A stretch of DNA of 41,507 bases from Methanomicrobiales archaeon (GTDB lineage: Archaea; Halobacteriota; Methanomicrobia; Methanomicrobiales; JACTUA01). The stretch is taken from contig JARYLJ010000017.1 of NCBI GenBank assembly GCA_029907705.1, positions 1-41,507 of the forward strand, in the 5' to 3' direction. Below the pieces are notes generated by a model. That model worked only from the letters and a program-made list of their open reading frames with translations, did not search any database and was not told the origin of the DNA. Position numbers and translations under genes: made by a program. Every line of letters begins with the position of its first letter. Positions within the stretch are counted from its first letter, which is position 1. Shown here one piece after another: positions 3,711 to 40,167 of this stretch.

Positions 3711-5291
3711 TCAGAGCACCACAGATCTCACGGTCAGGAATACCGGGCCCCGGACGTCCACCTTCTTCTTGTTGTCGGTGATGAAGCGCATCGCATGCTC
3801 CGCCACATGCAGGTTGATATCGGCAGGAGATCTCGCCATCTTCACCTGGACGACCGTCCCCTCTCCGCAGCGCGCCGCCACCTCGATCCTCGCAGACGCC
3901 AGGGCAGAGACCGCATCCAGGAACAGGATGCCCGTGCTCACCGCCTCCTCTCTCATCCGGGCCCACTTCTCCGTGGGTGGGATCCCCAGTACAGAGCCCT
4001 GGTGTACACACACCTCATTGAAACAGGCCGGACCGCATAATTTCGCCCCCTCCTCTTTCTCCTCCACATAGACCTCCACCTCTCTACCATGGATCTCACC
4101 TCTCCAGGCGGCGAAGGAGCATGGGCCGGGTGCCGTGGCATGCGCCTTCGCGGTCCCGCTGATGGAACGTGCGAGCGACCTCCCCTCCGCTGTCGCGGGC
4201 TCTTCTTTCAGTGTCACCGCCCTCGCGATCTCCCGGTCAGAGAGAATAAACGGATATAACTGCGGATAGGTCAGGACCCTGACATCCTCCCCCTCATGGA
4301 TGATCATCGCGAGCCTCTCCACCCCTAACCCCAGGTTCATGACCGGGACACCGATCCCGTACTCTGCCAGGGCTGAGGGCGAGTAGAGTCCAAAGGTGGC
4401 GACCTCCACCCATCCGTGCTTTGGATGTCTCGCGTACACCTCTGTCTGTGTCTCGGGGATGTAGTATTTGGACCTCTTCTCGTCCGGCTGGAACCTGAAG
4501 TCCGAAAAACCGAAACTGGAGAGCAGCACCTCGCTCACCGCCTTTCCCTCCTCGTTCGTCACATCCTCGCCTGCGACGACGCACGAAGCGGAGTGGTAGC
4601 TCATCAGGCGGGTCGGCCCCTCCGCCTGCTCCCTCCTGAAGCAGCGATCGATGGAGAATAGCCTGATGGGATGGGGGGACCGATCCCACATCGCACCGAG
4701 GGTGATGAACCATCCGCTCGTCATATGGCTCCTCAGCGTCATGCGCGATGATTCAGGGGCGATATTCCTGAACTCGTGGAAGACCTCCTCCAGAATCCTG
4801 ACGACCGCTGCATCGTCCGCCTTCAGCACGAATGAAATCTCGTGGACCAGATCATCGCCATCTATCTCGGCCTTTTTGTATGCATGAAGCTTTTCCCTCA
4901 ACCCCTCTTCCGCATCGTCCGCAAGCGCCCTCCCGAGGATCCCCTCTATCTGCTTCATCTTCTCTCTGGAGATTCCGATATTGGGACGGGGCAGTCCGCC
5001 GAGATAAAAAACACGGTCGAGGACGGCCATCGCCTCCGGACCGAACTGCCTGTAGACCTCCCTCTCCTCGACGATGAGGGGATTGCAGCACTCCTCGAAG
5101 CCGATGCTGAGGTATAACTCGCGGAGGCGTCCTATCGTGCTGAAGACCGGATGCTCCTTTGCCCTCCTGTAATGGTACCTCGGATACGTCATCTCCACCG
5201 ACGGCGGGGTGATCACCCGCGGACCCTCGTGCCAGGCACGCTCGCGATCCTCCCTCGTCTTGTTTCTCCATTCGTTCACATCGAATCTCAT
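3711..5291 (-). CDS. sepS: O-phosphoserine--tRNA(Cys) ligase (SepRS)
   Basis: SepRS charges tRNA-Cys with O-phosphoserine, which SepCysS then converts to Cys-tRNA. This indirect route is characteristic of methanogens and a few relatives. The product is 526 residues, the normal length. It is a class II synthetase: [12 protein letters not shown] is motif 2 and GLGVERLAM is motif 3. TSGWFITLG and SYHSASC belong to the phosphoserine-binding core. The C-terminal third is the tRNA-anticodon region of the family. The ATG at 5291 is chosen because GGAGGTG ends three bases upstream. A GTG six bases earlier lies inside that SD. The start overlaps the taw1 stop as ATGA, so it is the last gene of an aRF1-argS-taw1-sepS operon. 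Confidence 0.95.
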
Positions 5292-6190
5292 GCACACCTC
5301 CGGAGCAGAGCGACCCTGCTCTTCTCGTTCTCATCTGCGATACAGTAGTCAGCGTACTTCGATATCTCCTCTGCGAACCGGCGGACCTCATGATGCTCCG
5401 GCATATTCTCTCTCCTCATCCGTCTTCTACTGAATCCGAGATACATGTAACCCTTTACTTCGACAAACATGGCGCCGGAGTCCTGCACCATGGCGGCGTA
5501 CCGTTCGGGGCTGCAGTCATTGATGCCATGGATGAGTGTGATCCGCACGGCAGATCTCCGCCCACCCAGCAGGTCCAGGCTCTCCTGCACCCTCTCCCAG
5601 CTCTCGGATGCGTCACTTTTCGGCCGGCAGAGCCGGCGGTAGATCTCCTGATCAGGTGCCGACAGGGAGAGATACATCTGCGTGGGGCGGCAATGCTCGA
5701 GGACCCACGGTCTCGTCCCGTTGGAGACGAGAAATGTCGTGCAACCTTCATGGTGGAAGAGATCGATGAGTTCAGGGAGATGCGAATAACAGGTCGGCTC
5801 CCCCGCGAGGGAGATGGCCACATGCTTCGGTCTCGCCGCTTCGGAGAATCGCTCCAAAGACACATCCGAAGAGACTTTAAAGCCTGCAATCGCCCTCTTC
5901 TGGAGATCGGCGATGCGGGAGACGATCTCCTCCGGGGCGATCTCCTCCTCTGAGGTCACCTCGTGCTCGAACGAGCGCCAGCAGTAGAGGCATCTCTGGG
6001 TGCATCTCAGCGTGGGGGTCATCTGGACACACCGGTAACTCTCGATACCGTAGAACTGATACTTGTAGCAGGCTCCTCTGCTCCTGAGGTCAGATTTGCA
6101 CCAGAGACAGGGTTTAACCGCCGCCGAAGAGCGTGTGGAGAAGAACTGGTACCCCTGTCTTCTGAGCGCGTCACATGGAACTGAGAGCAT
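5288..6190 (-). CDS. taw1: tRNA 4-demethylwyosine synthase Taw1 (radical SAM)
   Basis: Taw1 uses radical SAM chemistry and pyruvate to build the tricyclic imidazopurine 4-demethylwyosine from m1G37 of tRNA-Phe. The 300-residue protein carries the radical SAM motif CTQRCLYC (CX3CX2C). Other cysteines in its N-terminal third ([22 protein letters not shown]) supply the second cluster known in this family. [14 protein letters not shown] and FLVSNGT are family signatures. The ATG at 6190 matches the usual N-terminus and overlaps the end of argS by 20 bases; no strong SD precedes it. The stop overlaps sepS by four bases. Confidence 0.93.
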
Positions 6191-15796: not shown

Positions 15797-16276
15797 ATGA
15801 AGAAGCATGAGGTCTACGAGAGCGTTCCGGGTATTCTCCGGCCTTTCAAGACATTCATCGAAGGGCTCCAGCTGAAGGAGCATGCACAGATCGTTTATTA
15901 CGGAGTCCCCGGGACATGTACGCCATTCATAGAACTCCTCGGATTCGCAATCCGAACCCTTCCTGTGAAGCAGATTTATGTTCCCACCATTGACGAATCG
16001 AAGGCGAAGGTGATGGTGCTGGAGAAGGATGTCGGTATGCAAGTGGGCAGAGAGGGGATCAGCCTGAACCCCTCCGTGGTGGTTCTGATGGGTGGACTTT
16101 CGATGCCCAACTCGGGTGTTACCGCGCCTCAGGTGAAGGCGGTGGTCTCCAGGTACAAAGTACCCTTCGCAGGCGTCTGTTTCATGAAGATGTTCGAAAA
16201 GACAGGATGGTTGAAAGAATTCGATTTCGATCTCCTCATTGATGCGAATATCGCGCCGGTGGATGTCTGGAGGTAA
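15797..16276 (+). CDS. DUF2124 family protein
   Basis: The 159-residue product resembles DUF2124, a family found in methanogenic archaea and of unknown function. It is a soluble alpha/beta protein with GVPGTCTPFIELLGF near residue 37, followed by VVVLMGGLSMPNSGV and a cysteine in VPFAGVCFMKMF. The glycine-rich turns suggest a Rossmann-like nucleotide or cofactor fold, which is inference. An AGGTGAC SD lies seven bases before the ATG. It precedes the HerA-like ATPase gene, with a T-run terminator between them. Confidence 0.8.
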   Translation: MKKHEVYESVPGILRPFKTFIEGLQLKEHAQIVYYGVPGTCTPFIELLGFAIRTLPVKQIYVPTIDESKAKVMVLEKDVGMQVGREGISLNPSVVVLMGGLSMPNSGVTAPQVKAVVSRYKVPFAGVCFMKMFEKTGWLKEFDFDLLIDANIAPVDVWR

Positions 16277-16348: not shown

Positions 16349-16360
16349 ATGAACGCATGA
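16349..16360 (+). promoter_or_regulatory. Three-codon upstream frame overlapping the ATPase start
   Basis: ATG-AAC-GCA-TGA begins eight bases after the SD at 16333-16340. Its stop shares ATGA with the ATPase ATG, which itself lies 16 bases from the SD. Ribosomes could load on the mini-frame and reinitiate, but use of the downstream ATG despite the long spacing is also possible. Confidence 0.3.
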
Positions 16361-18510
16361 ACGAGGATCTTCTCTCTCTCCTCGATGGCGAAGGGGTATC
16401 GAGCGAGGAGCTGCTGTTCCTGAAGGGTATCGCGCCGGTGGACGCGTTCGCTTCTCTTCGCACACCGGAGGCAAAGAGTTGCCTCGATGGACTCTTCTTT
16501 GTATACACGACAGCAAACGCGGGTATCCGGATATCCGGAAAGGAGATGCCCGCCGGTCTTTCGCTCGATCCACTGATCCAGTCAGGCCTTGTGCGGGAGA
16601 ACGGCGAGATGAAGGATGCAGAACTCAACACGACGCCGGTGGGCGAGGTCCTTGCCAGCACGCTGAGCACTGCACGGATGAGGCGGGCGATTCATGCGTA
16701 TACACCCTCGGGTACGCACCCTCTCGTTCCCATCCTTCTGGCAGGCAGAAGGTCGGGAGGCCGGCTCGTCAGGACCTTTCCTGCCGAATGCGGTCAGAAA
16801 ACCGAAACAGCAGATATCGCGGCGATCCTTTCGGAAGAGACCTTCGGCCAGTTCAGACGATTCTTCCTTGCGATGATCGAGGCGGGCTGTGCAGTTATTC
16901 TGCCGAAGTCCGATGAAAGGGGGTCGATTTTCGTTTTTCCGCCAGAGATGGCGGTGCTGTTGAATGGTTTGATCGAACAGATGGGGCCGGAAGAATATAT
17001 CGAATGGTCGGGAAAGGCATCGCACATTGAGGGGATCCTCCAGCTGATGGACACCCTGTCAGCGAGAGGTGAGGCCTCTGTCAACACTGACCTCCTCTCT
17101 GGAGTTGAAGGAGCATTACAGGCCGAGTCGAAAGAGGCGCTCATGTTCGAAGACAGGGGAGCCGGTGAGGGAACTCGTATCATCCTGAAAGACAGGGGGC
17201 ATTGGGAAAGGCTGAAGAGGAAATGGTTGAATTCGCTCGGAAAGGAGATCCAGATGTATCTTTCAGCCGGTGAGATCGGAATGGCAAAAAAACCGGAGGT
17301 TCAGAAGCGAGAAAGTCACGTCGAAACAATAACGGCATCCTCCTCACCAAACAGAACTACAGTGGAGGTGCATGCCGCTCTTCAGGTGGAACGGAAAGAA
17401 AAAGTCGTTCAGATGCATAGAAAGGGGGATCTGAGTGTCTTTCTCGGCCATTCGGATGCAGGAGATGCGGTGTCGTGGGTGCCGGCAGCGTACAACAACG
17501 GCCACTTCATCATCATCGGAGGTTCCGGTGCGGGAAAGACGGAGACGCTCCGGGTCATCGCCACCGAACTGGAGAGGCAGTACTATCCCGTACTGATGAT
17601 CGACTTCCACGGGGACATGCTCCCGAAGGAGGCCAGGGCGATCACCTATCGCATCAGGGAGGGCGGGGAGTTCTATTTCAATCCGCTCGAGCTGGATCCC
17701 CTTTTTCGTGATATCACGCCACTGCGCGCCACCTCCGACTTCGTGGATGCGCTGTCCATCAACTTCCCCACTCTGGGGATCCAGCAGCGGCGCAAGATCA
17801 AGGAGATCGTGAAAGATGCATACCGGCGGCATGGAATCACCCCTGATTCCGATACCTGGCTCCAGGAAGTTCCGTTCGATGCAATAGAGGAGGGCATCAT
17901 GTCGAGCGATGACGAGACCCTCGCCGCCTATCTCGAGGATATATTCGATTACCGCCTTTTTTCAGGGACGAACCGGCTCTCGATAAAGGAGATCCTCCAT
18001 CGGGGAACGACGCATATCCAGCTCAGTGCACTGCCGGAGAACCTGCGGTATCTGTTTGCCGATCTCCTCCTGAGGAGGCTCTTCTACTCGCTGCAGGCGC
18101 TGGGGGAGATACCGCGGGATAAAGTGGAGGCAAGGGATCGGTTCAGGCTCTTTGTCATCGTGGACGAGGCAAAACTCCTCGTGAGCCAGAAGACCGGGCA
18201 GAAGCAGGTGATAAAGGCGGTATTGAATAAATATGCAACGGAGATGAGGAAGTTTGGTGTGGGCCTGATCCTCGCCTCTCAACTGATAAGCCATTTCAAC
18301 GACGAGATACTGGCAAACATCGCGGTGAAGTTCTGCATGAGGACCGAGAACAGGAAACAGGCGATGGAGAACAGCCGCTACTTCGAGATCAGCGAATCCG
18401 ACCTGATGAACTTCATTCCGGGTGAGGGCATCCTGATATCGGGCAGCAGGCGGACGAGGCTGAAGATACTGCCGCTCTCGATGAGAGGACGTTCAACGAT
18501 GCCGGTGTGA
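16357..18510 (+). CDS. HerA/FtsK-type P-loop ATPase with uncharacterised N-terminal region
   Basis: The C-terminal half (about residues 370-700) is a DUF87/HerA-type motor ATPase: Walker A GGSGAGKT at 388-395, MIDFHGDM after it, Walker B LFVIVDEAKLL with D603-E604, and a polar ASQ element in LILASQLISHF. Relatives pump or process DNA as hexamers (HerA, TraD/VirD4, VirB4). The first about 350 residues match nothing I recognise. They are charged, lack membrane segments and could be an adaptor or winged-helix region. No nurA nuclease or mre11/rad50 gene is adjacent, so this is not the standard HerA-NurA resection operon. The ATG at 16357 overlaps the stop of a three-codon frame at 16349-16360 that sits at ideal distance from the SD GAGGAGAG. 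Confidence 0.75.
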   Translation: MNEDLLSLLDGEGVSSEELLFLKGIAPVDAFASLRTPEAKSCLDGLFFVYTTANAGIRISGKEMPAGLSLDPLIQSGLVRENGEMKDAELNTTPVGEVLASTLSTARMRRAIHAYTPSGTHPLVPILLAGRRSGGRLVRTFPAECGQKTETADIAAILSEETFGQFRRFFLAMIEAGCAVILPKSDERGSIFVFPPEMAVLLNGLIEQMGPEEYIEWSGKASHIEGILQLMDTLSARGEASVNTDLLSGVEGALQAESKEALMFEDRGAGEGTRIILKDRGHWERLKRKWLNSLGKEIQMYLSAGEIGMAKKPEVQKRESHVETITASSSPNRTTVEVHAALQVERKEKVVQMHRKGDLSVFLGHSDAGDAVSWVPAAYNNGHFIIIGGSGAGKTETLRVIATELERQYYPVLMIDFHGDMLPKEARAITYRIREGGEFYFNPLELDPLFRDITPLRATSDFVDALSINFPTLGIQQRRKIKEIVKDAYRRHGITPDSDTWLQEVPFDAIEEGIMSSDDETLAAYLEDIFDYRLFSGTNRLSIKEILHRGTTHIQLSALPENLRYLFADLLLRRLFYSLQALGEIPRDKVEARDRFRLFVIVDEAKLLVSQKTGQKQVIKAVLNKYATEMRKFGVGLILASQLISHFNDEILANIAVKFCMRTENRKQAMENSRYFEISESDLMNFIPGEGILISGSRRTRLKILPLSMRGRSTMPV

Positions 18511-18920: not shown

Positions 18921-19784
18921 TCAGATGTAGGGGTTTCTGAGACCCTTGTTCACGCCGTAGCTGGCCCTCTCCTCGATATACTTCTTGTTCTTCGTGATCT
19001 TCTCGTTCGCCAGCTTCGTCACGAGCTCCAGACCCGGCTTCACCTGGTCGATGGGCGTTGTCTCGAAGCAACCGGCAGCGATGGCGCGGTTCCAGATCTC
19101 CTCTCCCTTCTTCGTTCTGATGAAGACGGTGCTCCATCCATCGGGGCTGCCCACGGACCCTGTGGAGATATCCCCGAGGTTCGCGACATAGTCGAGGCAG
19201 ACATGGCAGCCGGGCTGCTCGTATTTGTGGGTGATCTTCAGGGGCAGGGAGACCACGTTCCCCCGCTCCGTGTACACCCAGAATTTGCCCTTACCGATCT
19301 CCATCTTCTTGACAGCCTGCATCTTCTGGCCGGCGTGATCCTCCACCAGCTGCTGGATACTCTTGTATGGGAAGTTCTCCATGCAGAAGATGCCGATGGC
19401 GAGAGCGATCTTGTCGGGCACTTCGCGGAGCCCTATCGGGTAGAGCTGCCCCTTTCTGATCGCCTGCATCTGGCAGGGTGTGCCCACGATACCCACCTTG
19501 TCGAGTCCGAAGCTCCTCGTCGCCTCCTTGATCCAGGAGATGTTCGGGCTGATATTGTACTTCGTGCCCCTCGCGGCGAGGATCTCCTCCTTCGTGGTCG
19601 CGATGTACGGTCTGGGCTTCCATGGCCTGTCGCCAATGCCCGTGACGATCGCACCGTCGATGTAGCCATTCTCCAGCGCGAAGACGAAGAGCTGGGTGAC
19701 GATACCGCCATCCTGCGACTTCTCGAGGATCTCCTTGTCGGTGCTGCGCGCCGAGACCACTGTCTTGTACTTTCCGAGTACCAT
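18921..19784 (-). CDS. frhB: Coenzyme F420-reducing hydrogenase, beta subunit FrhB
   Basis: FrhB holds FAD and an Fe-S cluster and passes electrons from the hydrogenase to F420. The 287-residue protein shows the family motifs [22 protein letters not shown] and [16 protein letters not shown], which include cluster cysteines. The ATG at 19784 is chosen because GAGGTGA ends five bases upstream. An in-frame GTG at 19793 falls inside that SD. It is the last gene of frhADGB and starts 10 bases after the frhG stop. Confidence 0.95.
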
Positions 19785-19794
19785 CTCTCTCACC

Positions 19795-20733
19795 TCACTT
19801 CATTGCCCCGTCGATGAGCTCGAGGATCCCTTCGAACTCGTTCATCACATCGAAGCTGTACCAGCTCCTCGGGCACTGGTTGTAGCACGCACCGCATTTG
19901 ATGCAGAGATCGCGCTGCCCCTGTGGCTTGCCCCATTCGTGCGTGATCGCACGTACCGGACATGCGGCCGCGCAGGAGCCGCACCCCATGCAGAGCCCCT
20001 GGTTGATCACTTCGTACATCAGATCGCAGAAGCACGCAGTGGTGCCGCGCTTCGCCGCATTCATCAGCGGCTTCAGGAACTTGGCCGCCAGCGTCTTCTG
20101 GTCCTCTGTGCCACGGAGCAACAGGTATGCGGCCACGCACACATTCCTGATCATCTGGGGCGTGGGCGCACATGCGGGGATGTAGACATCCACATCGATG
20201 AGGTCGCCGATCGGCACGAATGATTCGTGCTGCGGCTGGTTGTGCTGCCCGCCCCGTGCAAACCGGGTGATGTTCCCGTAGCATGCGCATGCGCCGAGTG
20301 CGACAACGATCTTTGCCTTCTTCCTTGTCGTCTTGATGTCCTCCACCGACTCGTGATCCTGAATACAGACGGACCCCTCGACGAGCGCCACGTCCATCTC
20401 CGGTATGTGGCGGACATCGGCGAGGGTGAGCCCGTATACCAGATCCGCGTAATCATCGAGGATCTTCAGCAACCCTCCGTAGTTGTCTGCCAGGGACACG
20501 AGACAGCCGGTGCATCCGCTCATATGGACATGTCCCACGGTAATCTTGTTTGTCACAGACTTCTCCTCCTTCTTCGTCGTTTCTGCTTTTGTCTCCCTCT
20601 TCATCTCAGAAGGCGCTGCTGCCGATGGTGCGGCAACCGCCTCCTTTTTAGGAGGCTCCTCCCTCTTTGGGGGCTCCGGTGCCACCTTCTGCGGCTGCTC
20701 CCTCTTTTTGAAGACAGAATCCAGCAGTCCCAT
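19795..20733 (-). CDS. frhG: Coenzyme F420-reducing hydrogenase, gamma subunit FrhG, with N-terminal extension
   Basis: FrhG is the small iron-sulfur subunit linking the Ni-Fe site of FrhA to FrhB. The core starts near [17 protein letters not shown], whose cysteines bind the proximal cluster. Two ferredoxin motifs, [12 protein letters not shown] and [12 protein letters not shown], follow. From the ATG at 20733 the protein has 312 residues, with about 58 extra N-terminal residues rich in K, E, P and A that overlap frhD by 86 bases. GGAG lies six bases before this ATG. An alternative GTG at 20556 follows GGAGGAG and would give 253 residues, closer to the usual core length. Codon use in the extension is normal for this genome, so I keep the long form, but the start is uncertain. 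Confidence 0.9.
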
Positions 20734-21187
20734 AGGTTACTCCTATCTCCTCCAGTACCATTCGTACTGCATCTGGAATGGCATTTCTGACCTCTTCTGT
20801 GAGTCCAATCTCGAATTCCATTACTCTCTTCGGCTGACACCCGATGATCGTGACCTCGACCTCGTCCTTTAAGCGCTGCAGAGGCTCTGCAAGATCCCAC
20901 GAATGCGCATCCCTGTAGGTGCCCGGCGGGAGATCCTCCACTCTGAGCCTGGTTAAGCTCCCCGGCTCCGCTCCGAAATCGGCAATATCCACGATGACAA
21001 GCTTCCTCGTCACCCTCTCATCGAGCAGCGTGAATACGAAGTGCGGACCGCCGAGTCCTGCATCCAACACCTTCACCTCGGGAGGCAGTTTTAGTTTCTG
21101 CAGCTCCTCGATTACCGCAGGTCCGAAGCCGTCATCCGCAAAAAGCGGATTTCCGCAACCCGCCACCACGATCTCAGGGTACAGCAT
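20648..21187 (-). CDS. frhD: F420 hydrogenase maturation protease FrhD
   Basis: FrhD is an HycI/HoxM-type endopeptidase that trims the C-terminus of the FrhA precursor after nickel insertion. The 179-residue product has the family signature GCGNPLFADDGFGP near its start, with acidic metal ligands, and LVIVDIADFG further on. The ATG at 21187 precedes LYPEIVVAGCGNP and lies 11 bases after the frhA stop; a GTG overlapping that stop is a possible longer start. The last about 25 residues are A/G/E-rich, extend past the usual family end and are encoded in sequence that also encodes the N-terminus of FrhG. Confidence 0.92.
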   Translation of the reverse strand: MLYPEIVVAGCGNPLFADDGFGPAVIEELQKLKLPPEVKVLDAGLGGPHFVFTLLDERVTRKLVIVDIADFGAEPGSLTRLRVEDLPPGTYRDAHSWDLAEPLQRLKDEVEVTIIGCQPKRVMEFEIGLTEEVRNAIPDAVRMVLEEIGVTYGTAGFCLQKEGAAAEGGTGAPKEGGAS

Positions 21188-21198
21188 GGAATCGAGAC

Positions 21199-22566
21199 TC
21201 ACTGGATCAGTTTCTGTGCCACAATCCTGTTCTCCTCGTTCACGACGATCATATGCGTGGCGCAGGAGACGCATGGGTCGTATGCACGGACCACCAGTTC
21301 AGCCAGCTGCCACGGTGCCCCCGTCAGTGCACGGCTGCAGGTGGGGAAGTTCCATGTCGTGGGAACCAGCATCTCGAACCACTGAACGCGACCGTCCTTC
21401 ACTCGTGCGAGGTGCACGTCCGTGCCTCGCGGTGCCTCGTTCGCCGCCCATCCGAAGGAGCCGTCTCCCTGCGGGATCTTGTCGGCGAGGACCTTCGCAG
21501 AGGGGTTCAGCTCGTCCAGGCACTTGATGATCGAGTAGAGGCAGTCCGGATACTCCATCTGTCTCGCGATGTGCTGTCCGATGGTGCCCTTCTCATCGTA
21601 GTTCTTGAACAGGACCAGACGGGCACGCGGACCGACTTCCACAGGCTGGCCGTCGTAGGTGGGAACACCTGTGCATGCCTCCATCTGCGGCCAGGCCTTC
21701 GTGCCTGCCTTTGTGGTGCCTCCGATCGGATACGTTGGATCCTCGAAGTCGATGGTGACCTCGCCCATATACCAGTCCCAGGGCCTCGTCTCGAGCCAGC
21801 GCTCGGGCTTCCAGGTCGGGTCCTCGTCGAGACTGCTCGTTCCATAGACCGGATGGGTCGCCATGTAACCCTGGTTGTGGTACCCCAGATCCTTCGGGAT
21901 CGGGATCTGCTTTCCACCGACCTCGGTCCAGTCGCGCTTCTGGAAGTTGCGCAGAACCGCGATCATGAACTCCATCTGCTCGTGCGCGAGCACGAGACCC
22001 TCCTTCGCGAGGTCGTACATCTTCCATTTCGCCCGTTCCGTCACGTTCCTGTACATGCCCCCGACGCGGGGGTTGCTCGGATGCACGGCCTCTCCACCGG
22101 CGATCTCTCCGATGGTCTGGCCTATCTCCCTGAGCCTCTGGATCCTCTTCGCCACACTCCTTACGGGCTCCTCCTTCGTGAAGGGATTGATCTTCTTGTC
22201 AGTCCCCGGGATGTAGAAGTCCGGCAGGATCAGGATGTTGTGCAGCGCAATACTGTGTAATCTGTTCGCACACTGGAGGATCACGCGCAACAGATGCGCA
22301 TCCTTCGGGATCTCGCATCCGATCGACGCCTCCATCGCCTCGGTCGCGGCAAGGGTGTGTGCTATCGGACAGATACCACAGACCCTCGAGGCAATCTTGG
22401 GCACCTGCTCCATCGTCTTTCCTATGGCCAGCTTCTCTACGCCCCTCACAGGCGTGATGCTGAGCCAGTCTCCGCGCTCGACGATTCCAGCGTCATTGAT
22501 CTTGAGGACGAGCTTGGAGTGCCCTTCATGCCTCGTTGTTGGTGAGATCTCTACAACTTTCGACAA
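21199..22566 (-). CDS. frhA: Coenzyme F420-reducing hydrogenase, alpha subunit FrhA
   Basis: FrhA carries the Ni-Fe active site that splits H2. The ligand pairs are C63/C66 in RVCGICPIAH and C432/C435 in DPCVSCATH. Cleavage after H438 would release a 17-residue C-terminal peptide, the expected substrate of FrhD. All nickel ligands are cysteine; there is no selenocysteine codon. I place the start at the TTG at 22566, giving 455 residues beginning with the family's SKVVEISPTTRHEG. It is preceded by GAGGCGAT. The frame continues to a GTG at 22638, but that extension would run through the TATA box at 22605-22614. Confidence 0.95.
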   Translation of the reverse strand: MSKVVEISPTTRHEGHSKLVLKINDAGIVERGDWLSITPVRGVEKLAIGKTMEQVPKIASRVCGICPIAHTLAATEAMEASIGCEIPKDAHLLRVILQCANRLHSIALHNILILPDFYIPGTDKKINPFTKEEPVRSVAKRIQRLREIGQTIGEIAGGEAVHPSNPRVGGMYRNVTERAKWKMYDLAKEGLVLAHEQMEFMIAVLRNFQKRDWTEVGGKQIPIPKDLGYHNQGYMATHPVYGTSSLDEDPTWKPERWLETRPWDWYMGEVTIDFEDPTYPIGGTTKAGTKAWPQMEACTGVPTYDGQPVEVGPRARLVLFKNYDEKGTIGQHIARQMEYPDCLYSIIKCLDELNPSAKVLADKIPQGDGSFGWAANEAPRGTDVHLARVKDGRVQWFEMLVPTTWNFPTCSRALTGAPWQLAELVVRAYDPCVSCATHMIVVNEENRIVAQKLIQ

Positions 22567-22604
22567 CGATATCGCCTCACATTCCAACGGTGTTCGCACA
22601 GCGA

Positions 22605-22614
22605 TACATATAAT
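22605..22614 (-). promoter_or_regulatory. TATA box of the frhADGB operon
   Basis: Read on the minus strand this is ATTATATGTA, about 25 bases before a predicted start near 22584. The leader of about 18 bases contains GAGGCGAT (22571-22578) before the TTG start of frhA. Its position supports the shorter FrhA. Confidence 0.6.
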
Positions 22615-22639
22615 CTGCAGTGGTTGAAGTTCTCCCACG

Positions 22640-35564: not shown

Positions 35565-35878
35565 TAGCGGGGACTAGCCCGGGTGGCTCGGCGTCACCTG
35601 TCACCCGAAACCGTCGGTATGCGGGGGGCGAAGTTCGAGGACGGTTCTTCCGTACCGCGGGAGTCGTGATTGCTCTGACGTAGAAGCCTCGTCCCATGAG
35701 GTCAGTGGACAGGGATCGAGACTCCGGAGGGGGTGGAGACCTGTTGCTGCGGGGACCGGCCCAGGCCCGGAAGGGAGCAGGCTTACCGTGGACAGCTGGC
35801 GCCCATGGGGTCGCGGGGTGGAGGAAGGGCGGTGACGTGAACGCGGATATGTGGTCCCAACCGAGAACGTGTCCCCAT
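35565..35878 (+). ncRNA. ffs: Signal recognition particle RNA (archaeal 7S)
   Basis: The strongest marker is the helix 8 core GACCGGCCCAGGCCCGGAAG with its GGAA tetraloop and the following AGCAGG asymmetric loop (35754-35780). The 5' part has the Alu-domain helices 3-4 pattern GGGTGGCTCGG/CACCTGTCACCCG. GGGGAC at 35569-35574 pairs with GTCCCC at 35871-35876, closing helix 1 as archaeal SRP RNAs do. The length of about 310 bases is normal. The exact ends are estimated. Confidence 0.9.
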
Positions 35879-38502: not shown

Positions 38503-40167
38503 ATGCGCCGGTGTGCACCGCTCATCCTCATCGCCCTCCTTCTCGCTGGGGAGGCCATGGCATGGCAGATCGTGGAGTTCTGTCCCGATACGTATCTTCC
38601 GAACGACGCGGACGAGTACATCGTGCTCGAAGGTAACGGCACCCTCGATGGATACTTCATCTCCGACGGGGAGGGCAGTGTCAGGTTTCCCGGCAGCACA
38701 CGTGCGGATGGCAGGATCGTTGTTGCGCGCGAGGGTGATGCCTTCTGCAGAACCCATAGCAATCCTCCTGATTTCGAGCTCTTCAACACGAGAAGCGAAA
38801 TACCGGATGCGATAAGGGTGGGCAGATTCCAGCTGGCGAACACTGCAGACGAACTGATCCTCTATCAGGGGGCCACGGTATTACAGAAGGTCTCATGGCC
38901 CGCTGATCTGCGGGCGAGGGAGGGTCAGGTTCATTATTTTGAAAACGGGATCTGGGACCCCCGCCCACTCTTCCTCGGCCAGACGAGACTGGAACCATTT
39001 TCAGTAAGCAACGTGACACTGGTGGCATTCGTCTCACCCGACTCTGCATATCCAGCGTTCGCTCAGGCCATTGGAGGCGCAAAGCGGGAGATACTGGTGA
39101 ACGTCTATCTGTTCACGAATGGCAGGCAGGCAGAAGAGCTGACTGTCGCCGCCGGTCGAGGGGTTCAGGTCAGGGTCTTGATCGAGGGAGGACCTGTCGG
39201 TGGCATACCTGCAGAGGGATCGATCACCGCAGGTCTTCTGATGAGGAGCGATATCCCCGTCCTCCAGATGAAGAAGGCAGGGGATACGAGAAAGCGGTAC
39301 CGTTTTAATCATGCGAAGTACATGGTCATCGACCGGGAAGCGGTTTTCATCACGAGCGAAAACTTCGATCCGAACGGTTTTCCTCGCGAGGGCGAGAGGG
39401 GGAATCGCGGGTGGGGGGTATATATTCGATCTCCCGAAATGGCCGGTTATTTTGCAGATCTCTTCCTGGCGGACAGCATGGGTTACGATATCTCGCCTGC
39501 GGAGCCGATCGATGGAGAGATACCGTACTTCAAGGATACGCCTTATACACCGGAATTTCCCGCGATATCGTTCACAGGCGCAAATATCACCGCGGTCATC
39601 TCACCTGACACGAGCCGCCTGATCAACGACCTCCTCGAGGATGCGACATCCTCCATCGAGATCGAGCAGGCATATATCCAGAACTGGTCGGGAAACTCGC
39701 CGAACCCGTATCTGGAGGCGGCACTGAATGCAGCGAGGAGAGGGGTGCGGGTGCGGATCCTTCTGGATTCCTACTGGTTCAATACAGAAGGCGAGATGGA
39801 CAATGACGAAATGGTCCCTTTTCTCAGGAGGGTGGCGAGGGGTGAGGATCTCCCGCTCGAGGCGAGGCTCGCATCGCTCTCCAGCTCCGGCATAGAGAAG
39901 ATACACAACAAGGGAGTGATCGTGGACGGTCGCCGTGTGCTCATCTCCTCGATAAACTGGAACGAGAATTCGCCCCTGTACAACCGCGAGGCAGGGGTGA
40001 TCATCGAATCACCAGAGGTCGCGCGGTATTTCCTCGGTGTCTTCGAGGACGACTGGAGGGCTGCTGAGTCCGATAAAGCGAAGGGGCCCGATATGCTGAA
40101 GATCGGGGTGGCCGCCGCGGTGGTCTTCCTCCTCCTCCTTCAATATCTGGTGAATCGTCGTCGGTGA
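38503..40167 (+). CDS. Membrane-anchored phospholipase D-like protein with N-terminal lamin-tail-like domain
   Basis: Residues 1-20 form a signal peptide (LILIALLLAGEAMA). Residues about 21-145 resemble a lamin-tail (LTD) beta-sandwich: ADEYIVLEGNGT, LDGYFISDGEG, ADELILYQG. Two PLD domains follow, each with an HKD motif: H270-X-K272-X4-D277 in NHAKYMVID and H468-X-K470-X4-D475 in IHNKGVIVD, so a complete two-motif active site is present. A C-terminal transmembrane helix (VAAAVVFLLLLQYLV) ends in RRR, which places the enzyme outside the cell. It may cleave DNA or phosphodiester lipids; the substrate is unknown. The start fits a near-leaderless mRNA from the shared TATA; GAGGGTGA at 38485-38492 could act as SD instead. 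Confidence 0.88.
   Translation: MRRCAPLILIALLLAGEAMAWQIVEFCPDTYLPNDADEYIVLEGNGTLDGYFISDGEGSVRFPGSTRADGRIVVAREGDAFCRTHSNPPDFELFNTRSEIPDAIRVGRFQLANTADELILYQGATVLQKVSWPADLRAREGQVHYFENGIWDPRPLFLGQTRLEPFSVSNVTLVAFVSPDSAYPAFAQAIGGAKREILVNVYLFTNGRQAEELTVAAGRGVQVRVLIEGGPVGGIPAEGSITAGLLMRSDIPVLQMKKAGDTRKRYRFNHAKYMVIDREAVFITSENFDPNGFPREGERGNRGWGVYIRSPEMAGYFADLFLADSMGYDISPAEPIDGEIPYFKDTPYTPEFPAISFTGANITAVISPDTSRLINDLLEDATSSIEIEQAYIQNWSGNSPNPYLEAALNAARRGVRVRILLDSYWFNTEGEMDNDEMVPFLRRVARGEDLPLEARLASLSSSGIEKIHNKGVIVDGRRVLISSINWNENSPLYNREAGVIIESPEVARYFLGVFEDDWRAAESDKAKGPDMLKIGVAAAVVFLLLLQYLVNRRR

Follow-up and report, generated by a model that had tools for sequence, protein, structure and literature searches.

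A stand-alone HerA/FtsK-type ATPase with a predicted winged-helix head in Methanomicrobiales, and its possible role in handling DNA ends or foreign DNA

Motors of the DndH and HerA/FtsK type are known as components of large defence gene sets. Captured HerA/FtsK motors are described as multi-gene defence systems in the main texts of two papers (PMC10853773; PMC12839542), the first of which presents DptG as a triple winged helix. DndH/DptH (of DndFGH, PDB 7es4) is a protein of about 1,700 amino acids in which SNF2-like, TRD, inactive methylase and REase domains precede the motor.

Here we describe an ATPase of 717 amino acids encoded in a window of 41,507 nucleotides, the whole stretch of DNA analysed, from a Methanomicrobiales archaeon (contig JARYLJ010000017.1 of assembly GCA_029907705.1). 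By profile, sequence and fold, DndH/DptH carries the nearest motor. However, none of the other domains of DndH aligns with the window protein, no Pfam match to the domains that precede its motor is seen, and the genes adjacent to the ATPase include neither dptF nor dptG. Our best explanation, to which we assign a probability of about one half, is an orphan dsDNA translocase of the HerA/FtsK-capture type that has a DNA-binding head and was domesticated for the handling of DNA ends or foreign DNA. We found no published description of the gene in the literature (supplementary files aside), which is not proof of absence. We found no stand-alone archaeal gene with this architecture in the main texts of PMC10853773 and PMC12839542, supplements aside, and the full text of PMC12988326 makes no mention of HerA, FtsK or Methanomicrobi.

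Architecture of the ATPase

The gene has an ATG start, upstream of which the frame stays open for just eight codons (open frame of 725 aa). The first-pass annotation had proposed a FtsK/HerA-class motor, and the reading frame is indeed real: 36 relatives align with it, and purifying selection on the motor is strong among them. The alignment (A1) contains 36 of 39 distinct relatives, without L006, L016 and L061; in a few rows the N-terminus is cut short or frameshifted. It confirms the Walker A and Walker B motifs at the residues previously claimed for them (Table 1), and K394, T395, D603, E604, R631 and Q642 are invariant across its 37 rows. The Arg and Gln positions of the DndH/DptH clade, as given in the main text of PMC10853773, are among these invariant residues. 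With its catalytic residues intact, the ATPase may translocate dsDNA as an ATP-driven ring, presumably a hexamer.

Table 1. Window coordinates of the ATPase gene, its parts and its landmark neighbours
Feature	Position	Strand	Basis
DUF2124, upstream neighbour; conserved locus landmark, not claimed as partner	15797..16276	+	PF09897 4.1e-46; synteny
Whole gene: predicted winged-helix head and DndH-type FtsK/HerA ATPase, 717 aa	16357..18510	+	Open reading frame; relatives
N-terminal DNA-binding-type module (predicted), residues 1-310	16357..17286	+	AF2 model mbc770715bf58, pLDDT 81.8, pTM 0.81
Likely winged helix 1 (MarR/DtxR-like), residues 36-114	16462..16698	+	MepR 4l9t Z 8.3; AF1382 2qvo Z 7.6 over 78 residues
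Plausible winged helix 2, residues 123-207	16723..16977	+	Helix/strand order in model; CodY C-domain matches 96-208 only, Z 6.3
Plausible winged helix 3, residues 211-304	16987..17268	+	Helix/strand order in model only
Unstructured linker, residues 307-356	17275..17424	+	pLDDT <50; 55% gaps at 321-340 among relatives
DndH-type FtsK/HerA motor, residues 358-712	17428..18492	+	Fold, hhalign and profile matches
Walker A GGSGAGKT, residues 388-395	17518..17541	+	All but S390 invariant in 37 rows
Walker B LFVIVDEA, residues 598-605, with D603/E604	18148..18171	+	D603, E604, A605 invariant, 37 rows
R631, likely arginine finger	18247..18249	+	Invariant; role by analogy with PMC10853773 (main text)
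Q642, likely sensor-1 glutamine	18280..18282	+	Invariant; role by analogy with PMC10853773 (main text)
frhB-G-D-A hydrogenase genes, convergent; other locus landmark	18921..22638	-	frhB by Pfam

Pfam matches to the protein start only from residue 375. DUF87 (383-575) and HerA_C (375-421) both score above cut-off, as does TrwB_AAD_bind, but the latter spans 47 residues only. Among profiles, DndH ranks first for the motor (2.5e-36), followed by mad8 (2.3e-25) and the best HerA profile (1.5e-12), and the closest solved sequence in a PDB search is the DptH of 7es4 (8.7e-14). The fold is matched best by the C-terminal part of DndH in 7es4 (Z 25.7, rmsd 3.4, 325 residues aligned), ahead of VirB4 (Z 22.7) and HerA (Z 18.1), with FtsK motor domains at Z about 9.6. 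In hhalign, DptH of an Aliivibrio plasmid is matched at 98.1% (E 8.2e-14) over the motor alone (DptH 1346-1654).

The roughly 350 residues before the motor had been thought to match nothing known. This stands for Pfam families, as no family scores above cut-off over residues 1-350 and in a scan of 32 N-terminal rows taken singly the lowest E value was 0.0096, from a single row. It does not stand for the fold, as winged helices in tandem are predicted for the region. In a model of the head by itself, based on 32 sequences, an N-terminal hairpin precedes three winged-helix units; the full-length model (pLDDT 73.7) places a disordered linker at 307-356. Alignment A3 (32 rows) differs from A1 in leaving out nine relatives, including L048, L049, L051, L052, L056, L030 and L005, which were near-identical to others or had an N-terminus that was frameshifted or unlike the rest, and in adding L067 and L068. 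In the fold search only the first unit has structural matches, at borderline Z, and two of 50 rows reach Z 8. Given that a Z below 8 may be a common arrangement, and that Foldseek returned no match at or below E 0.001 (best E 0.037), we consider a winged helix likely for unit 1 and plausible for units 2 and 3, as judged from the model. The best PDB matches of an N-terminal profile, non-significant at E 0.54 and 1.4, are both winged-helix proteins, and among viral structures there is no match at or below E 0.001. With small profiles of two and four DptG sequences, hhalign gave 0.14% and 0.30% for the N-terminus; DndG is absent among the listed structural matches of the head, an absence that proves nothing.

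A nuclease in the N-terminus was also considered and rejected: there is no Pfam nuclease match, and hydrophobic residues, Gly and Pro make up most of the positions conserved at 90%, among which no catalytic pattern is apparent by eye.

Locus, distribution and selection

The window neighbours of the gene are EF-2, DUF2124 and the frh F420-hydrogenase genes (frh names other than frhB come from a reading of translations, mapped by tblastn in relatives). Thus, in the window the ATPase gene adjoins neither a nuclease gene nor nurA nor any recombination gene, as had been noted before; the observation does not extend to the Methanoculleus family, where a gene for a LigD-type 3'-phosphoesterase adjoins the ATPase. 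The placement between DUF2124 on the plus strand and a convergent frh operon is common to the window, G003, G152 (contig C5) and four named Methanoculleus-family loci (L012, L015, L016, L024). Of ten DUF2124 regions examined that lack the ATPase, six are convergent with frh across a gap of 0.6 to 5.3 kb and one is linked in a non-convergent arrangement; for the other three no frh was found in the sequence retrieved, which in two cases stops close to the end of a contig. The locus is therefore older than the present distribution of the gene, which occupies a variable gap. In G011 the ATPase is 1.7 Mb from DUF2124. As a separate observation, frh genes are duplicated beside the ATPase in G003 (L096:11597-18666) and G010 (L066:6705-14591), not in the window.

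Elsewhere in the window, a 554-aa protein with a PLD nuclease-type domain (38503-40167, plus strand; PF13091 9.1e-36, with a weak TrmB-like match) is encoded 20 kb from the ATPase. An O-phosphoseryl-tRNA synthetase-like gene (3711-5297, minus strand; tRNA-synt_2d and SepRS_C) makes a tRNA-dependent cysteine route likely, and an archaeal SRP RNA lies at 35567-35878 (plus strand, 175 bits).

The gene occurs in all 28 genomes examined (each at least 80% complete) of family f4, which includes Methanoculleus, and in 3 of 11 genomes of the window's own family (1e-10). Across the order Methanomicrobiales, 43 of 199 genomes have a match at 1e-20, a weak one in G017 and G042, and 156 are without a match. 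The class gives 41 of 232 at 1e-40. At the level of the phylum, 23 of 392 genomes match with the motor at 1e-20; four of these are outside the order, G438 being close (62%). No relatives were found in viral contigs, and phage records gave two weak matches, of 25-31% identity at closest. Plasmids gave 92 records for the motor, none at or above 60% identity, the distant matches being at about 30%.

In the motor tree (L008 and the frameshifted L031 left out), f1 and f4 group together at 89/99, short of the 95/80 mark; the window groups with L007 at 96/91, and f4 is recovered at 100/99. In G010, tandem ATPase copies (L066:351-5135) have unlike N-termini and share roughly 250 bp of nearly identical motor sequence (longest identical run 118 bp), probably a product of gene conversion, judging from the sequences; by eye, the N-terminus of the second copy resembles that of L030.

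The motor is the more conserved part of the protein. Among relatives, identity is 66-72% in the motor and about 24% in the head, and median pairwise dN/dS is 0.084 for the motor vs 0.215 for the head (32 sequences; 459 of 496 pairs kept, with motor dS <1.0 and N-terminal dS <1.5; L056, L036, L030, L005 and the window excluded). A second set gave medians of 0.087 (motor), 0.144 (frhG), 0.198 (phosphoesterase) and 0.263 (DUF2124). All these values are descriptive, because pairs are not independent.

A survey of gene neighbours, as proposed in the first-pass annotation, shows the phosphoesterase in the Methanoculleus family and defence genes beside three of the six relatives outside the f1/f4 group. 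In f4, 34 of 36 ATPase-bearing genomes carry the phosphoesterase gene immediately after the ATPase, in the same orientation; in the two exceptions, the ATPase runs to the contig end (G127) or the phosphoesterase starts another contig (G099). The same arrangement is seen at 25 of 28 named loci, the misses being L010 and L011, which end soon past the ATPase, and L007, from the window's family. Between the ATPase stop and the aligned phosphoesterase there are 21-123 bp at 16 of these 25 loci and 196-563 bp at nine. The neighbour matches PF13298 and has solved relatives 5dmp (1.9e-52), 2lj6 (3e-52) and 3p43. It is much commoner than the ATPase, occurring in 119 of 199 genomes (ATPase, 43 of 199) and mostly without it; the phosphoesterase therefore does not need the ATPase. 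In the window's own family no phosphoesterase lies beside the ATPase, and in the window's genome (G000) it adjoins a divergent Ku gene on contig C16 (C16:44325-45419; L114 6188-7420). The Ku match there has one in-frame TAG near its end. Ku was found in 7 of 60 genomes, at most 2 kb from the phosphoesterase in five of the seven, and in none of 12 f4 genomes examined.

Of the outlying relatives, L095 (G438) neighbours a TIR protein (PF13676 1.5e-17), L036 two genes whose products are DrmD-like (a helicase, 1.1e-122) and TmtA-like (2.6e-60), and L068 a DNA methylase together with an Eco29kI endonuclease (6.4e-59). For L067 the sole match, to type I specificity, is weak (5.9e-6) and lies 6 kb away, and a reading of translations revealed no defence gene near L030 or L031. 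L036, a non-archaeal relative, may represent a recent transfer or a mis-binned contig, as its order has the gene in 1 of 198 genomes. In G438 the TIR-domain gene (L095:8571-9812) is directly 3' of a close ATPase relative with a short frame (430 aa) near the contig end, and the pair is a candidate two-gene defence unit.

Proposed role and its alternatives

Sequences and models show the architecture of the ATPase, the kinship of its motor, its conservation and the synteny of its locus. We suggest that the ATPase was taken from the pool of defence motors and later domesticated in Methanomicrobiales, where it would handle DNA ends or foreign DNA. The motor domains could form a ring around dsDNA and pump it at the expense of ATP, and the two to three predicted winged helices, on a flexible linker of roughly 50 residues, may select the DNA substrate or dock the ring. 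The ATPase has no nuclease domain of its own; therefore, cutting or end processing would have to come in trans. In the Methanoculleus family the likely partner would be the downstream LigD-type 3'-phosphoesterase, cleaning 3' ends of DNA delivered by the pump. A more specific version, which we put forward tentatively and regard as rather doubtful, is that pump and phosphoesterase form a Ku-independent machine for DNA-end processing in that family, the defence-derived translocase having replaced Ku as genomic partner; the window copy would then represent only the pump, in a genome where Ku and phosphoesterase are still neighbours at another place.

The chief rival to the domesticated capture motor is active defence. 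Here the protein would be a stand-alone or trans-acting factor against viruses or plasmids, its head recognising invading DNA or a modification state and its motor capturing or remodelling that DNA for host nucleases. The closest motors are defence components, half of the outlying relatives adjoin defence genes, the head evolves faster than the motor, and outside one family the distribution is patchy. Counter to this, a fixed locus, presence in every f4 genome examined and a motor more constrained than FrhG are not what is usually seen in a defence gene; in the window the ATPase has neither an effector nor a nuclease beside it, and its N-terminus does not outpace the neighbouring phosphoesterase and DUF2124 genes in evolution. 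We consider active defence possible, although on balance unlikely. The link to defence raised in the first-pass annotation is thus supported as kinship, by sequence, fold and three of six outlying neighbourhoods. It does not amount to evidence for a role in defence only, since the f4 gene behaves like a core gene and has a DNA-end-processing neighbour.

A housekeeping chromosome translocase, FtsK- or TdpA-like and acting in segregation or dimer resolution, would also draw on a FtsK/HerA-class motor, would suit a core gene of one family and is compatible with the fold match to FtsK motor domains. However, FtsK_SpoIIIE reaches 16.8 bits, under the Pfam cut-off of 24, and absence of the gene from most Methanomicrobiales genomes means that it has no general segregation role in the order. 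We judge such a function improbable.

More improbable still is that the gene was left behind by a mobile element or a conjugation system, as a VirB4, TraD or viral packaging motor that now has no role in the cell. The VirB4 fold match and the distant plasmid matches could be read in this way, but purifying selection in relatives is strong, the chromosomal position is conserved, viral contigs hold no relative, phage matches are remote, and curated T4SS models score far under cut-off (VirB4 43.9 vs 643.1 bits, TraD 14.8 vs 366). The idea of a plasmid-transfer link finds no support, given these scores and the lack of any transfer gene seen nearby.

That the gene is not the standard HerA of the HerA-NurA pair had been suspected and proved correct. 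Archaeal HerA has a motor of the same FtsK/HerA superfamily. In contrast to it, the window ATPase shows neither of the two features that the first-pass annotation had named as refuting its view: it has no HAS-barrel (PF09378, none at E up to 1) and no nurA linkage. It scores 42 bits against a cut-off of 970 with the HerA model NF040819 of NCBIfam. On contig C45 of the same genome, nurA (PF09376 5.6e-33) is followed by a canonical herA, which as a positive control gives HAS-barrel 2.7e-10 and DUF87 3.2e-47; mre11 and rad50, named from reading their sequences, are next to the pair. Canonical HerA is rejected on the missing HAS-barrel, the low score and this separate copy, and the window gene encodes a distinct, additional motor of the genome. 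That the protein is a canonical HerA partnering the genome's NurA, its N-terminus lost or exchanged for another, is scarcely credible, despite the DUF87, HerA_C and HerA fold matches, when DndH and VirB4 match better and the HerA with a HAS-barrel is the one adjoining nurA.

Comparison with described systems

Cultured Methanoculleus strains and the lytic virus Blf4 described for Methanoculleus (PMC8540584) make both the repair and the defence readings testable, and adjacency to a DNA-end-repair enzyme in related methanogens makes the role of the ATPase itself testable. If the partnership is true, it would provide a new motor for archaeal end repair and a case of a defence motor turned to housekeeping.

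The phosphoesterase beside the ATPase in the Methanoculleus family belongs with LigD 3'-phosphoesterase domain proteins (PDB 2lj6, 3p43), but it is stand-alone and beside the ATPase, not beside Ku or within a LigD ligase. MADS offers another motor of this kind in mad8 (PADLOC PDLC04140), whose profile matches the relative L067 (7.8e-25) as well as the window ATPase; it covers 314 positions, essentially the motor, and the MADS gene set is absent among the genes adjacent to the window ATPase. No linked endonuclease, REase, Orc/CDC6, D5 helicase or PglZ gene is adjacent in the window either.

The HerA/FtsK capture systems, as set out in the main texts of PMC10853773 and PMC12839542, combine a captured motor with fast-evolving winged-helix domains. 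The window ATPase appears to do the same, its first winged helix being borderline and its second and third assigned by topology. Unlike those systems, it joins head and motor in one polypeptide at a conserved chromosomal locus. Here such a motor occurs on its own with a predicted winged-helix head, as a core gene of one methanogen family that is placed beside a 3'-end-healing enzyme in Ku-less genomes.
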